Assembly: GCF_011038655.2 (NCBI RefSeq)
Contig: NZ_CP064954.1
Location: forward strand, 186,001-250,000
Reading direction: 5' to 3'
DNA: 64,000 bases
Origin: Corynebacterium lizhenjunii
GTDB lineage: Bacteria > Actinomycetota > Actinomycetes > Mycobacteriales > Mycobacteriaceae
In this document: positions 1,773-64,000 of the stretch, one piece after another
Layout: each line of letters starts with the position of its first letter
Numbering within the stretch: position 1 is the stretch's first letter
Made by a program: the position numbers and the translations under genes
The notes under the pieces: generated by a model
Seen by the model: the letters and a program-made list of their open reading frames with translations, nothing else
What the model was told of the DNA's origin: nothing
Database searches by the model: none

Positions 1773-2804
1773 ATGACCACTGTTGCAGTAGTAGGTGCCA
1801 CCGGTCAGGTGGGCCGCGTGATGCGCTCCATTTTGGAAGAGCGCAACTTCCCCGCAGACACCGTGCGCTTTTTTGCCTCTGCGCGTTCGGCGGGCCAGGA
1901 ACTGACCTTCCGCGGCGAGTCCGTGGTGGTGGAGGACCTAAGCGCGCAGACCCAGGAGTCTTTGCGCGGCATTGACATTGCGTTGTTCTCCGCTGGCGGG
2001 GCCACCTCTAAGGAGTATGCCCCGTTGTTTGCTGCCGCCGGGGCCACCGTGGTGGATAATTCCTCCGCGTGGCGCAAGGACCCGGAGGTACCGCTGATCG
2101 TTTCCGAGGTTAATCCGGGCGATAAGGACCAACTGCCCAAGGGCATAATTGCCAACCCCAACTGCACCACCATGGCGATTATGCCGGTGGCTAAGGCTTT
2201 GCATGATGCCGCCGGACTGACCACCATGCACGTTGCCTCCTACCAGGCGGTGTCCGGTTCCGGGCTGGCTGGCGTAGAGACCCTGGCTAAGCAGGTGGCG
2301 GAGATTGGGGACCGCAACGTGGAGTTGACGCACGATGGTTCCGTCCTGGAGCCAAATGAGCTGGGCCCCTACGTGGCTCCCATTGCTTTCAACGCCCTGC
2401 CGCTGGCTGGCAACTTGGTGGATGATGGCTCTGAGGAAACCGATGAGGAGCAGAAGCTGCGCAACGAGTCCCGCAAGATTCTGGGCATTCCTGAGCTGAA
2501 GGTGGCTGGGACGTGTGTGCGTGTGCCCGTCTTTACTGGCCACACCATGGTGGTGCACGCCCAGTTTGAGCGCTCCCTGACCCCGGACCAGGCTCGTGCC
2601 TTGCTTGCCGATGCCCCCGGTGTCCAGGTCGTGGACGTCCCCACCCCGTTGGCTGCAGCCGGCATTGACGCTTCCTTGGTGGGCCGTATCCGCCAGGACC
2701 AGACCGTTGATGACAACAAGGGCCTGGTCTTCGTGGTCTCCGGCGATAACCTGCGCAAGGGGGCGGCGCTGAACACCATCCAGATCGCGGAACTGTTGGT
2801 CTGA
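1773..2804 (+). CDS. asd: Aspartate-semialdehyde dehydrogenase
   Basis: NADPH-dependent reduction of aspartyl phosphate to aspartate semialdehyde, second step of the aspartate pathway. The 343-residue length is normal. Visible are the N-terminal dinucleotide loop GATGQVG (8-14), the catalytic cysteine in NPNCTTM (Cys131) and the active-site histidine in FTGHTM (His257). It lies directly downstream of lysC and its stop is one base from the next ORF. A copy of the dispersed word TGCCGATGCC (2606-2615) encodes Leu-Ala-Asp-Ala here, using the CTT leucine codon. Confidence 0.97.
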
Positions 2805-2805
2805 T

Positions 2806-3945
2806 ATGCGGTGGTCCCGCTCAGTACTGGTACTGATTGTTGTCCTCAGCGTGACGCTGCTGGGGGTTGTGTACTGGGCGGGCTTTGGGGGGCGGCGCGA
2901 CCGCGTTGCACAAGAATGGACCCGGCCGGGTAATTTCATTGTGGCCTATGGCCCGGTTATTGAGCCACCGTTTATCGCTGGCAAAAATAGGTACTATGTG
3001 TATAGTCCTAGCGGCGAAAGGTTGGATAGCCAGAGTGGGGCGGGCCATTGGTACCCGGGCGTACTGGGGTCTACGCAGGCGAGCTTGTTGTCTTTTGACC
3101 GTTCGCTTCGCCATTTTCGTAAAGACGGCTCGGTTGTAGACGTTTCTCGGACTGGCCACCAAAACTATATGCAGATGTCCCCAGAGGGCAACTTGGCGGT
3201 GGTGGGCATTCAGGGCGATGGCACAGCGAACGGGGTCGAAACGATTATGTTGTTGCGGGCTGATGGCGCTGTGTTTAAGCAGAGGATCCCCTTTTCGTCT
3301 CATTCGCTGGACTTGAGCGAGGACCACGTCATTGTCATGGGCACTTCCCCGGAGGGCACACCGCAGCGGAACCGAATCTTCGTCATGGACGCTGACGGTG
3401 GCGGTGGGGAAGTTGCTCTTCCCCAGGACTACGATGCAGCTTTCGTGCCCATGAGGTACTCCACCGTGAATTACATGGGGGACGGGGTGTTCGAGATTTT
3501 GCAAACTGACCGCGTGGACAATGGTGAGGAAGGGGAGCGGACAGAGGTCACCGCGTTCGAAGTCCGGGTAACCGATTCCCGCGCGCAAGAGCTTGAGACT
3601 CAACAGGTCCGCCACCGGGTGATGACCCGGTACGAGGATGCTGCGGTGAGTGACAACCTGCCGTATGGGGAAAGCGGATTTATCGATGCGGACGGAAAGG
3701 TATTCATTAGCCGCCGCGATAGCGAGAAACCAGAGTATATGGGCACGGTGGCGGACTTTGCTGAGGAAGGTTTTCTGCGGGTCCGTAGCAAGGCGGCAGA
3801 TCCTAAATTCGCTCTGAAGCGCGAGGGCTACGTGGAGATCCGCTCCTGGAACAACCCGGAGCGGGTAGTCGCTACCCTCAACACGGAGCGCTTTGCCTGT
3901 CGCATTGAGCAGTGCGGCATTGCCGCCGTGACAGAAATCAGCTGA
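2806..3945 (+). CDS. Membrane-anchored protein of unknown function
   Basis: 379 residues starting MRWSRSVLVLIVVLSVTLLG, one uncleaved-looking hydrophobic helix, then about 350 hydrophilic residues predicted to lie outside the membrane. No family is recognised; short alternating strand-rich stretches (DGAVFKQR, DGKVFISRRD) could be blades of a beta-propeller, which is only a guess. It ends with a short cysteine pair (CRIEQC). The ATG starts one base after the asd stop, so it is very likely translated from the same message. Codon use looks less biased than asd. Confidence 0.75.
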   Translation: MRWSRSVLVLIVVLSVTLLGVVYWAGFGGRRDRVAQEWTRPGNFIVAYGPVIEPPFIAGKNRYYVYSPSGERLDSQSGAGHWYPGVLGSTQASLLSFDRSLRHFRKDGSVVDVSRTGHQNYMQMSPEGNLAVVGIQGDGTANGVETIMLLRADGAVFKQRIPFSSHSLDLSEDHVIVMGTSPEGTPQRNRIFVMDADGGGGEVALPQDYDAAFVPMRYSTVNYMGDGVFEILQTDRVDNGEEGERTEVTAFEVRVTDSRAQELETQQVRHRVMTRYEDAAVSDNLPYGESGFIDADGKVFISRRDSEKPEYMGTVADFAEEGFLRVRSKAADPKFALKREGYVEIRSWNNPERVVATLNTERFACRIEQCGIAAVTEIS

Positions 3946-62422: not shown

Positions 62423-62449
62423 GGAAACTCCTCTAGCAAGGGTGGCGGG

Positions 62450-64000
62450 TTAGTCGGCGTCGAGGGAATAGAGGCGTCGCTGGGTGCGGTACATCTGGGA
62501 ATATGTTCCACCGAGCGCGAGGAGCTGGCTGTGCGTGCCTTGCTCCACCACTTCACCGTTGGCGAGGACAATGATGCGGTCCACGTTCGTGATGGAAAAC
62601 AGCCGGTGGGTGATGACAATGAGGGTATCGGTGGGATCGGCCTGGTGGAGGACCTGCCCGTACAGGGCCTTTTCGGCGTAGATGTCGAGTGCGGAGGTGG
62701 GCTCGTCAAGAATGAGCAGCCGACCCCACGGCGCTGGGGCAGTGACCAGCGCGCGGGCGATGGCGAGCTTTTGCCACTGGCCGCGCGAATACTCGCCGTC
62801 CGCGTCGTGCTCGGCTATGAGACTCCCGATGCCCAGGGCTTGCGTGATTGCCCGATGGTTGGGGTGCAGGTGCTCGCGGCCCAAGTATATGGACTCCGTT
62901 GCTGTCAGCGGTGGGCGCATGAAGTCTTGGGCTACCAGGCCGATGCCCCCACTTCCTGCAGCTTTGTGCCGTGGGTTGCCGTTGTCTAACTGCACCGCTC
63001 CGGTAGTCGGGGTGAGCTCGCCCGTGAGCAGCTTAATTAGCGTCGACTTGCCAGCACCGTTTTCGCCGACGATGGCCACTTTCTCTCCGCGGGCAATGTC
63101 GAGGTTCAACCTGTCGAGCACGAGGGAGTCCCGGTAAGAGAAGGAGACGTCCGTGAAAGTAACCAACGGTGGGGTGTTCGTGCCGGAGGCGTTGTGGACA
63201 GGGGAGCTGGCAGCGGTGCCGCCAGGGGTTTCGGCGGGGGCATCGGCAACACAAGCTGCGGGGGACTGAGCGAAAGCGAGCTGGCGCAACATGGACTCAA
63301 ACTCGATGGCGTGGAGCTGCACTGAGCCCAGGGTGCCCAGGCCTGCCAGGCCGGGAGCGGCTACCACGATGGTGCCCAGGAACGCGGCATAGTCGGTCCC
63401 CGGCTGCCGCACAGTCCAGACGATATAGAGGAAGAACACCAGAAAGAAGGGGGCGCTCGCCTTGAGGGTTTGCGCACCCAAGCGGCGAGTGCGAGTGGCT
63501 GCAGTGTCTAGCTTCAGCGCGGTGGCGGCGGTGAAGCGCTCCCGCAGGAGGCTGCCTAGTTGGAACAGTCGCGACTCCTCTGCAAATTCTGCCCCCGTGA
63601 GAGTGTGCCAATAGAACTGGGCGCGCTGCGCCGGTTGGTCCGTAGTACCGGCCAGATCTTGGTGCATGACCGCTTGGTATTTGGAGGTCATGGCGCCGGA
63701 ATACCAGGTGGCTGCCCCCACCGCTAGGCCCAGAAGGAGATTCCACTGGCATAGCAGCAGCACGGAGACTGCACCGGAAAGCCGCTGCTGAAAGACGTAG
63801 AACACCAGGGAGATACCTTCTTGGCCTACCCAAGATTGAGTTTGGGAGGCCAGTTGGCCGTGCGGGTGGGCCAGATCCCGCGCTAAGGCGGCAGGCTGAA
63901 GCCAGGCGTGCAGCCTGCCCTGGAGTCGGTAGATGAGGTGGTCTGCGGCTGCATCAATGAGCGGGACTGCGACCAAGACCGGCAGCAGGGTCAGGAAAGC
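62450..64000 (-). CDS. ABC exporter half-molecule, first of a tandem set (5' end outside window)
   Basis: At least 516 residues remain. The membrane part precedes a nucleotide-binding domain with GENGAGKSTLIKLL (Walker A), [12 protein letters not shown] (Walker B) and a degenerate signature EYSRGQWQKLAIARAL (usual LSGGQ). The linker VADAPAETPGGTAASS carries the dispersed word (63239). Reading frame is open to the window edge. Its altered signature motif suggests an asymmetric partner in a heterodimer. Confidence 0.88.
   Translation of the reverse strand, partial: AFLTLLPVLVAVPLIDAAADHLIYRLQGRLHAWLQPAALARDLAHPHGQLASQTQSWVGQEGISLVFYVFQQRLSGAVSVLLLCQWNLLLGLAVGAATWYSGAMTSKYQAVMHQDLAGTTDQPAQRAQFYWHTLTGAEFAEESRLFQLGSLLRERFTAATALKLDTAATRTRRLGAQTLKASAPFFLVFFLYIVWTVRQPGTDYAAFLGTIVVAAPGLAGLGTLGSVQLHAIEFESMLRQLAFAQSPAACVADAPAETPGGTAASSPVHNASGTNTPPLVTFTDVSFSYRDSLVLDRLNLDIARGEKVAIVGENGAGKSTLIKLLTGELTPTTGAVQLDNGNPRHKAAGSGGIGLVAQDFMRPPLTATESIYLGREHLHPNHRAITQALGIGSLIAEHDADGEYSRGQWQKLAIARALVTAPAPWGRLLILDEPTSALDIYAEKALYGQVLHQADPTDTLIVITHRLFSITNVDRIIVLANGEVVEQGTHSQLLALGGTYSQMYRTQRRLYSLDAD

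Follow-up and report, generated by a model that had tools for sequence, protein, structure and literature searches.

A dispersed ten-base word in Corynebacterium lizhenjunii is probably a dialect of a DNA uptake signal

Why does a single ten-base word, TGCCGATGCC, recur throughout a stretch of the Corynebacterium lizhenjunii chromosome? The stretch (the window; 64,000 nucleotides, C1:186001-250000 of genome G000, contig NZ_CP064954.1) comes from a genome of one contig of 2,607,882 bases, and the answer we favour is that the word probably belongs to a DNA uptake system. We searched both strands for exact matches and observed 20 copies in the window, 7 on the plus and 13 on the minus strand, with all 20 coordinates and strands as read in an earlier note on the letters of the window. 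Dinucleotide shuffles of the window contained 0.28 copies on average and 2 at most, and none of 100 shuffles attained 20. There were 990 copies in the whole G000 genome (504 forward, 486 reverse) and 10 of the control, for which we used throughout the same letters of the word in reversed order. The genome-wide count is therefore approximately 100-fold above the control and not near expectation, and the over-representation described in the earlier note is confirmed and larger than first noted. Further counts were made in a sample of 464 kb with 162 copies, composed of the window and of 20 stretches of 20 kb at even distances. For some counts one extra stretch was added (484 kb, 169 copies); in this larger sample an order-4 model that masked the word predicted 4.9 copies.

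The word is non-palindromic, that is, it differs from its own reverse complement, and in G000 it is preceded by A-G-Y-Y and followed by S-C-C. Extended forms recur in the window, as had been claimed for two of them: AGCTTGCCGATGCC is found 6 times, GCTTGCCGATGCC 9 times and GAGTCTGCCGATGCC 4 times, where an order-5 Markov model built on the window predicts at most 0.05 copies of each. The six imperfect copies listed earlier (8509, 13234, 20079, 51480, 53853 and 61850) carry a single mismatch each, always at word position 8 or 9, and their left flanks are mostly retained. We also counted the 30 single-base variants of the core in 484 kb and found 248 against 93.5 expected (order-4 model). The excess concerned positions 1-3, 6, 8 and 9, while variants at positions 4, 7 and 10 stayed at background and those at position 5 near it (13 vs 7.8). 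This is what decaying copies of a site read by a protein would look like.

The 20 copies in the window comprise 13 read in sense as Ala-Asp-Ala (ADA), 5 antisense and 2 outside listed genes. The protein readings given before (13 Ala-Asp-Ala, 3 His-Arg-Gln, 2 Ala-Ser-Ala, 2 between genes) all hold. The copies are as follows.

2606..2615, plus: sense ADA, semialdehyde dehydrogenase (1773-2804)
4056..4065, minus: sense ADA, unnamed protein of 520 amino acids, close to its C-terminus
4089..4098, minus, GAGTC flank: sense ADA, in the same gene as the 4056 copy and 33 bp away from it
11273..11282, minus: sense ADA, HNH-domain protein (9974-11470)
20225..20234, minus, AGCT flank: antisense, TlpA/thioredoxin-like gene (19881-20573; family matches below curated cut-offs)
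22530..22539, plus: intergenic
27277..27286, minus: sense ADA, ABC transporter ATPase (27172-28893)
27991..28000, minus, GAGTC flank: sense ADA, in the part of the 27172-28893 protein that separates its two ATPase domains; 3 aligned orthologues differ
32877..32886, minus: sense ADA, alpha/beta hydrolase (32697-33593)
34300..34309, plus: sense ADA, unnamed protein (34253-34942)
34591..34600, plus, GAGTC flank: sense ADA, gene 34253-34942
34812..34821, minus, AGCT flank: antisense, gene 34253-34942
37661..37670, plus: sense ADA, tadA; 10 of 10 aligned orthologues have other residues and no word
38847..38856, minus, AGCT flank: antisense, tadB; His-Arg-Gln in the frame of the open reading frame (ORF) 38468-39424
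41063..41072, plus, AGCT flank: sense ADA, gene in the tadG position
44744..44753, minus: antisense, MFS transporter (44160-45431)
47889..47898, plus, GAGTC flank: sense ADA, topA (47152-50259); none of 9 orthologues aligned here has the word
50723..50732, minus, AGCT flank: antisense, unnamed ORF (50272-50976)
58942..58951, minus, AGCT flank: intergenic
63239..63248, minus: sense ADA, ABC transporter (62450-63976)

The simplest cause would lie in the proteins, if Ala-Asp-Ala linkers and codon preference together produced the word. The ADA frame does account for 13 of the 20 window copies and for 85 of the 162 sampled ones. Briefly, we called genes with a simple ORF script, which covered 85.7% of sampled bases and missed some genes (it labelled as intergenic three window copies lying in tadB, in the tadG-position gene and in ORF 50272-50976). 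The 162 sampled copies were divided into 89 sense and 44 antisense copies in genes and 29 outside called genes. When synonymous codons were shuffled within each gene (40 shuffles), a mean of 3.7 remained from the 89 sense copies and 5.6 from the 44 antisense copies. The same was observed in eight further word-bearing genomes, with 15-45 in-gene copies against shuffle means of 1.2-3.2 (60 shuffles each), while two word-poor genomes had 1 copy each against means of 0.6 and 0.2. Since the synonymous shuffles remove nearly all copies, we reject the explanation by protein and codons.

The codons and flanks agree with this. There were 177 Ala-Asp-Ala tripeptides in the sample, of which 100 were coded GCC GAT GCC and 9 GCC GAC GCC. 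The sampled genes have 12921 leucine codons, and 7.9% of them are CTT, the codon described in the earlier note as poor in this genome yet used ahead of the word; directly before GCC GAT GCC, CTT encodes 23 of the 26 leucines. Nor is GCCGATGCC equally common without its flank: preceded by T it occurs 169 times against 4.9 expected, and preceded by A, C or G 7, 17 and 15 times against 3.2, 7.1 and 5.2 (order-4 model, 484 kb). The protein-level cause, which we regard as almost certainly wrong, is thus refuted by the synonymous shuffles and by the order-4 flank counts. The view that selection acts on DNA rather than protein is borne out; it acts inside genes at tolerant positions.

For the in-gene window copies of the 40-kb tad region we compared orthologues in 10 relatives at the same residues, looking for the two main dialects described below (the GACG and GATGCC forms) in up to 10 genomes per site. 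In 48 site-by-genome alignments, covering 8 sites in five genes, no orthologue had either word at the site, so the word sites are not conserved in place. The residues at these sites mostly differ, although the orthologues are up to 86% identical; the exceptions were one identical RHRQ and one NADA. The 8 sites do not include 20225 (a spurious antisense ORF was picked), 44744 (no orthologue aligned), or 22530, 38847, 41063 and 50723, which the script called intergenic. The copies therefore occupy positions at which the proteins differ from one species to another.

The placement of the word along the G000 chromosome was analyzed with the origin set at the contig start and the terminus at approximately 1.31 Mb, as estimated from GC skew. 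We did not observe any replication polarity, as noted earlier (73 leading vs 87 lagging copies, p = 0.30; 20 of the 21 sampled stretches, the putative-terminus stretch left out). The number of copies per 20-kb stretch was Poisson-like (mean 7.47, variance 7.37) in 19 of 20 stretches. The twentieth (L042, C1:1440001-1460000) is a prophage segment with 0 copies, for which P = 6e-4 taken alone and approximately 0.01 when 20 stretches are allowed for, the stretch having been chosen post hoc. Phage families were matched by 7 of the 10 proteins scanned in it, including RecT, RecE, an anti-repressor and a replication initiator. One phage and one plasmid of other hosts were also checked for the word. 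Neighbouring copies less than 120 bp apart were more frequent than expected (19 vs 6.6); 15 of these 19 pairs had the same direction, and 12 of the 15 were spaced by a multiple of three. Close direct pairs in the window (4056-4098) and in other G000 samples have spacings of 15, 18, 21, 30, 33, 36, 39 bp and more. The in-frame direct pairs look as if short in-frame duplications spread the word.

Relatives of C. lizhenjunii contain related words. The exact word TGCCGATGCC is frequent in few of them only, and it is the C. lizhenjunii dialect of a spaced motif that extends through the genus, GCTTnnCGAYG. The earlier note missed this motif and offered no mechanism; its readings of selection on DNA and of absent polarity stand. 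In 242 same-genus genomes we applied a threshold of at least 100 copies for the GATGCC form, GCTTnnCGATGCC, and of at least three times the reversed control for the GACG form, GCTTnnCGACG. The GATGCC form reached it in 17 genomes and the GACG form in 173 (median 1076 copies, range 115-1964), with one genome, G024, passing both (578 and 352 copies), so that either main dialect is present in 189 of 242. The strands of the 173 GACG genomes were balanced (92130/92211 pooled; none unbalanced at p < 0.01). A third dialect, TGACGYCGCG, was observed in G012 (1106 copies, 551/555, control 27). It was sought in 57 genomes, namely 53 without a main dialect (G012 included) and 4 others, and the runners-up were G119 with 84 copies (control 35) and G021 with 65 (control 14). 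Further, G127 has 130 copies of TGCCGATGCC against 19 of the control. With these fixed patterns no strong word was found in 51 of 242 genomes. Eight genomes at 1.5-3 times the control for GCTTnnCGACG may be decaying remnants.

Outside the genus no sampled genome of the family reached a threshold. The GATGCC form had at most 24 copies in 140 such genomes (G242, control 6), and the highest ratio for the GACG form in 113 was 373 to 143 (G338). A scan of named relatives, with at least 7 Corynebacterium records among the 80 matches listed, gave 14 GACG words per 21 kb in C. urinipleomorphum (reversed control 0) and none in 21 kb of C. variabile (control 3). That the word is limited to one species was rejected, as k-mer surveys found related words in supposedly word-poor genomes. 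In these surveys, made on sampled stretches of 40-60 kb per genome, a GCTTnnCGACG-type or other dispersed word was found in G002, G005, G009, G010, G012, G013, G015, G074, G145 and G166, and none in G007, G011, G029, G050 and G131. Iterative motif refinement converged for most GACG genomes; we relied on fixed patterns for the counts because in G128, G175, G001, G106 and G000 it drifted towards codon periodicity or a short CGATG core. The GACG motifs of G013, G014, G015 and G055 show additional preferred flanks (e.g. CGACGccgcg in G014), hinting at further sub-dialects.

The window also contains a tad locus, at 35.7-41.2 kb, which itself holds three copies of the word. Its genes, all on the plus strand, are listed below.

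35737..37344, plus: ORF in the tadZ position, no Pfam match, true start probably further in
37332..38543, plus: tadA, pilus assembly ATPase; PF00437 has no other match in the G000 genome
38540..39424, plus: tadB, T2SSF family by family match
39421..40083, plus: tadC, T2SSF family by family match
40158..40457, plus: gene in the flp position, without NCBIfam match; putative major pilin, judged by its place and its homologues
40462..40785, plus: tadE, minor pilin (NF041390, Rv3655c type)
40782..41165, plus: TadE-like protein in the tadG position (TIGR03816, Rv3654c type)

All 11 genomes sampled at this locus have the tad genes in the same order with a helicase gene behind, and 9 of the 11 have an HAD gene ahead in the same orientation (it was unmatched in G001 and on the opposite strand in G012). 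In G000 comEA and comEC are adjacent near 1.876 Mb. PF03772 (ComEC) was matched in 241 of 242 same-genus genomes. All 32 loci inspected for ComEA and ComEC contain both, and each of 20 inspected tad loci has TadE/TadG homologues. Choosing a receptor by gene presence or absence gave no candidate, since the Com and TadE/TadG genes also occur in word-less genomes. In G128, which has 509 words, comEA and comEC look split or shortened (L149), which may be an assembly error or a recent loss of uptake.

We also drew trees. In the TadA tree (41 rows) all 17 GATGCC genomes cluster together, G127 falls within their group (support 100/99), and GACG genomes stand both beside this group and in unresolved outer branches; for this reason the GACG form may be the older. 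G186 and Corynebacterium sp. MSK041 have identical TadA proteins (among the matches listed); this identity and the GACG words of the named C. urinipleomorphum are the grounds for assigning the genus to Corynebacterium. The ComEC tree (32 rows, no outgroup) agrees in outline. Four word-less rows, G007, G050, G019 and C. variabile, have a very divergent TadA; that of C. variabile is 50% identical to the G000 protein, while those of Rhodococcus, Nocardia and Gordonia are 57-64% identical (among the matches listed). In the same four (L283, L284, L285, L241) the tadB and tadC queries match a single ORF, so they appear to have a differently built tad locus. In a hand-drawn group of 33 genomes with a weak TadA match none has the word, compared with 184 of the 203 others with a TadA match. 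We had supposed that the tad locus was replaced in the word-less lineage; this was withdrawn, as the TadA tree, drawn from its midpoint, shows when unrooted the four divergent rows, three outgroup rows and the other Corynebacterium as three groups meeting at one node.

Taken together, abundance, strand balance, constraint at the DNA level, placement at tolerated positions, turnover, excess of near-misses and dialects argue for a word of the DNA uptake sequence type. We consider it likely that TGCCGATGCC is this species' dialect of a DNA uptake signal, and that uptake proceeds first by a Tad pilus, one of whose minor pilins reads the word, and then by ComEA/ComEC. The cell would build a Tad/Flp pilus that binds outside DNA, and fragments bearing the word would be favoured by a protein at the surface. 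The most likely candidates for this protein are the Tad minor pilins (TadE or TadE-like); ComEA is a less likely one. The DNA would then cross through ComEA and ComEC as a single strand and recombine into the chromosome. Word-bearing alleles would in this way be taken up more often, and copies would accumulate on both strands and mostly in genes, at places where they harm neither DNA nor protein, and would be held near the consensus. A change of receptor would shift the favoured word and produce dialects such as GCTTnnCGACG, GCTTnnCGATGCC, TGCCGATGCC with a looser left half, and TGACGYCGCG. Species with the word would, we infer, be transformable. For the genus as a whole we are inclined, with some reserve, to think that most Corynebacterium use word-specific uptake by the Tad/Flp pilus across the mycolic-acid outer layer, that the word has an architecture of its own (GCTT-nn-YGAYG) and is read by a Tad-type receptor, that dialects form barriers between species, and that one lineage with a strongly divergent Tad lacks the word.

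Besides the protein-level cause, the word could serve a protein of recombination or chromosome maintenance, as a Chi-like or KOPS-like site or as that of a nucleoid protein, and be selected in place for this role; we find this unlikely. Its even spacing along the chromosome and its constraint at the DNA level suit such a protein, and a prophage without the word is also expected of a recently arrived element. Chi and KOPS, which share with our word that they are dispersed, abundant and short, are replication-polar and need a leading-strand excess. No such excess was observed here, and identity with either was rejected on polarity (73 leading vs 87 lagging). The Poisson-like bins show no concentration in any sampled part of the chromosome, the sites are not kept between species (0 of 48 comparisons, 8 sites), and within one genus the dialects change and the word is absent in scattered fashion. 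It is improbable that the word is a self-mark of a defence or modification system, methylated or protected in the manner of HIP1. Such a mark would be abundant in the cell's own DNA and missing from the prophage sample, as observed, but HIP1 is palindromic and our word is not, its spacer is variable, and one pattern extends across 189 of 242 species, whereas modification systems usually vary from strain to strain. We give very little credence to another transfer route (conjugation, vesicles or phage-like transfer) that reads the word and exerts an equal drive. Any word-biased entry would yield an identical genomic pattern; however, none of these routes is known to us to use a dispersed word of 10-13 bp, and Tad with ComEA/ComEC already offers one that is used in a relative (PMC4322843).

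Several observations weigh against uptake by the Tad pilus and ComEA/ComEC. We found no report of a competent Corynebacterium in the titles, abstracts and passages of the open literature. ComEC, ComEA and Tad also occur in genomes without a known word (G008, G029, G131), so the presence of the machinery fails to predict the word. The word is present in 5 of the 6 genomes with no TadA match, although all six are incomplete or fragmented assemblies. When the hand-drawn group is replaced by a plain cut (E above 1e-116), it comprises 35 genomes and 2 of them have the word: G075, with two TadA matches, and G095, with one weak match. Further, three divergent-TadA genomes (G007, G019, G119) form one group in the ComEC tree (100/100), and the absence of the word may hence be one event; replacement and fast evolution of the divergent tad locus are inseparable, because the groups meet at a single unrooted node. 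The link between word and Tad type is thus weak, being one suggestive coincidence in one lineage and not statistics. The evidence for a possible depletion in foreign DNA is the single 20-kb prophage stretch of G000, and inverted pairs are rare (4 of the 19 neighbour pairs less than 120 bp apart are opposite).

The nearest known kind is the DNA uptake sequence (DUS) of Neisseriaceae and the uptake signal sequence (USS) of Pasteurellaceae. The USS occurs on both strands, mainly in coding sequence, with near-miss copies in excess, and our word does the same with a comparable copy number. It differs in sequence and phylum and in its rare inverted pairs; inverted pairs of the Haemophilus USS, AAGTGCGGT (about 1300 copies), are common and form terminators (PMC5217627). 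In Neisseriaceae eight DUS dialects were found via over-represented 10-mers, and family-wide dialects with a shared core are the known pattern (Frye et al., PMC3630211). As there, we observed a 10-mer-class word with hundreds to thousands of copies, single-base dialects round a shared core, wide distribution, and one genome holding two dialects (S. muelleri there, G024 here; PMC3630211). The DUS receptor ComP is a sequence-specific type IV minor pilin (PMC6370729), and ComN is a predicted receptor of the same kind (PMC12616744). In contrast, our word has another sequence and occurs in another phylum with a variable two-base gap (GCTT-nn-CGAYG), the only assembly ATPase found is TadA, its function is putative, and no ComP-like receptor was identified, no ComP/ComN homology search having been made. 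In the actinobacterium Micrococcus luteus Flp/Tad pili and ComEA/ComEC perform transformation, and its authors describe this combination as frequent in actinobacteria; two tad loci are present in M. luteus, and that paper does not use the term "uptake sequence" (PMC4322843). G000 likewise has tadA-B-C-flp-tadE-tadG and comEA-comEC, known here from genes, and unlike M. luteus it has one TadA and a genus-wide word.

To our knowledge, sequence-labelled DNA uptake is known only from Gram-negative families with type IV pili. If the proposed uptake is correct, labelled uptake arose again in Actinomycetota, probably on a different pilus, and there would be grounds for expecting Corynebacterium to be naturally transformed, even in those species that are difficult to engineer. 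The approximately 190 genomes with dialects would allow the joint change of receptor and word to be traced, and the old question of why uptake words exist would become testable in a new lineage. We found no report of such words in Corynebacterium or Actinomycetota in titles, starts of abstracts and passages of the open literature, a scope that leaves subscription papers mostly and bioRxiv preprints wholly outside; a motif scan of 569 genomes names Corynebacterium, in its main-text passages, solely for CRISPR repeats (PMC5217627).

Other repeats were seen along the way. Clustered ones were set aside, namely CRISPR-like repeats in G131 and G000, a one-strand cluster in G002 and a 7-bp tandem repeat in G127. 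The G002 cluster (L154, 2871-7535) consists of 13 copies of CCGTCCGGGTAG in steps of approximately 230 bp or multiples, all on one strand, and is probably a repeat-domain protein. In G055 (L178-L180) and G029 (L175-L177) several 11- to 12-mers occur in at least 4 places, e.g. CTATCGTGTCG and ATTGCCTTTTTC, and are possible interspersed repeat elements. The CRISPR-like array of G000 (L047, 18333-20000; C1 from about 2108333) has at least 28 repeats at 61-62 bp spacing and reaches the end of the stretch; its repeat resembles that printed for C. jeikeium and C. urealyticum (PMC5217627). In the window, an IS1249-family transposase gene (57447-58649) lies inside the second longest gap between word copies (50723-58942).

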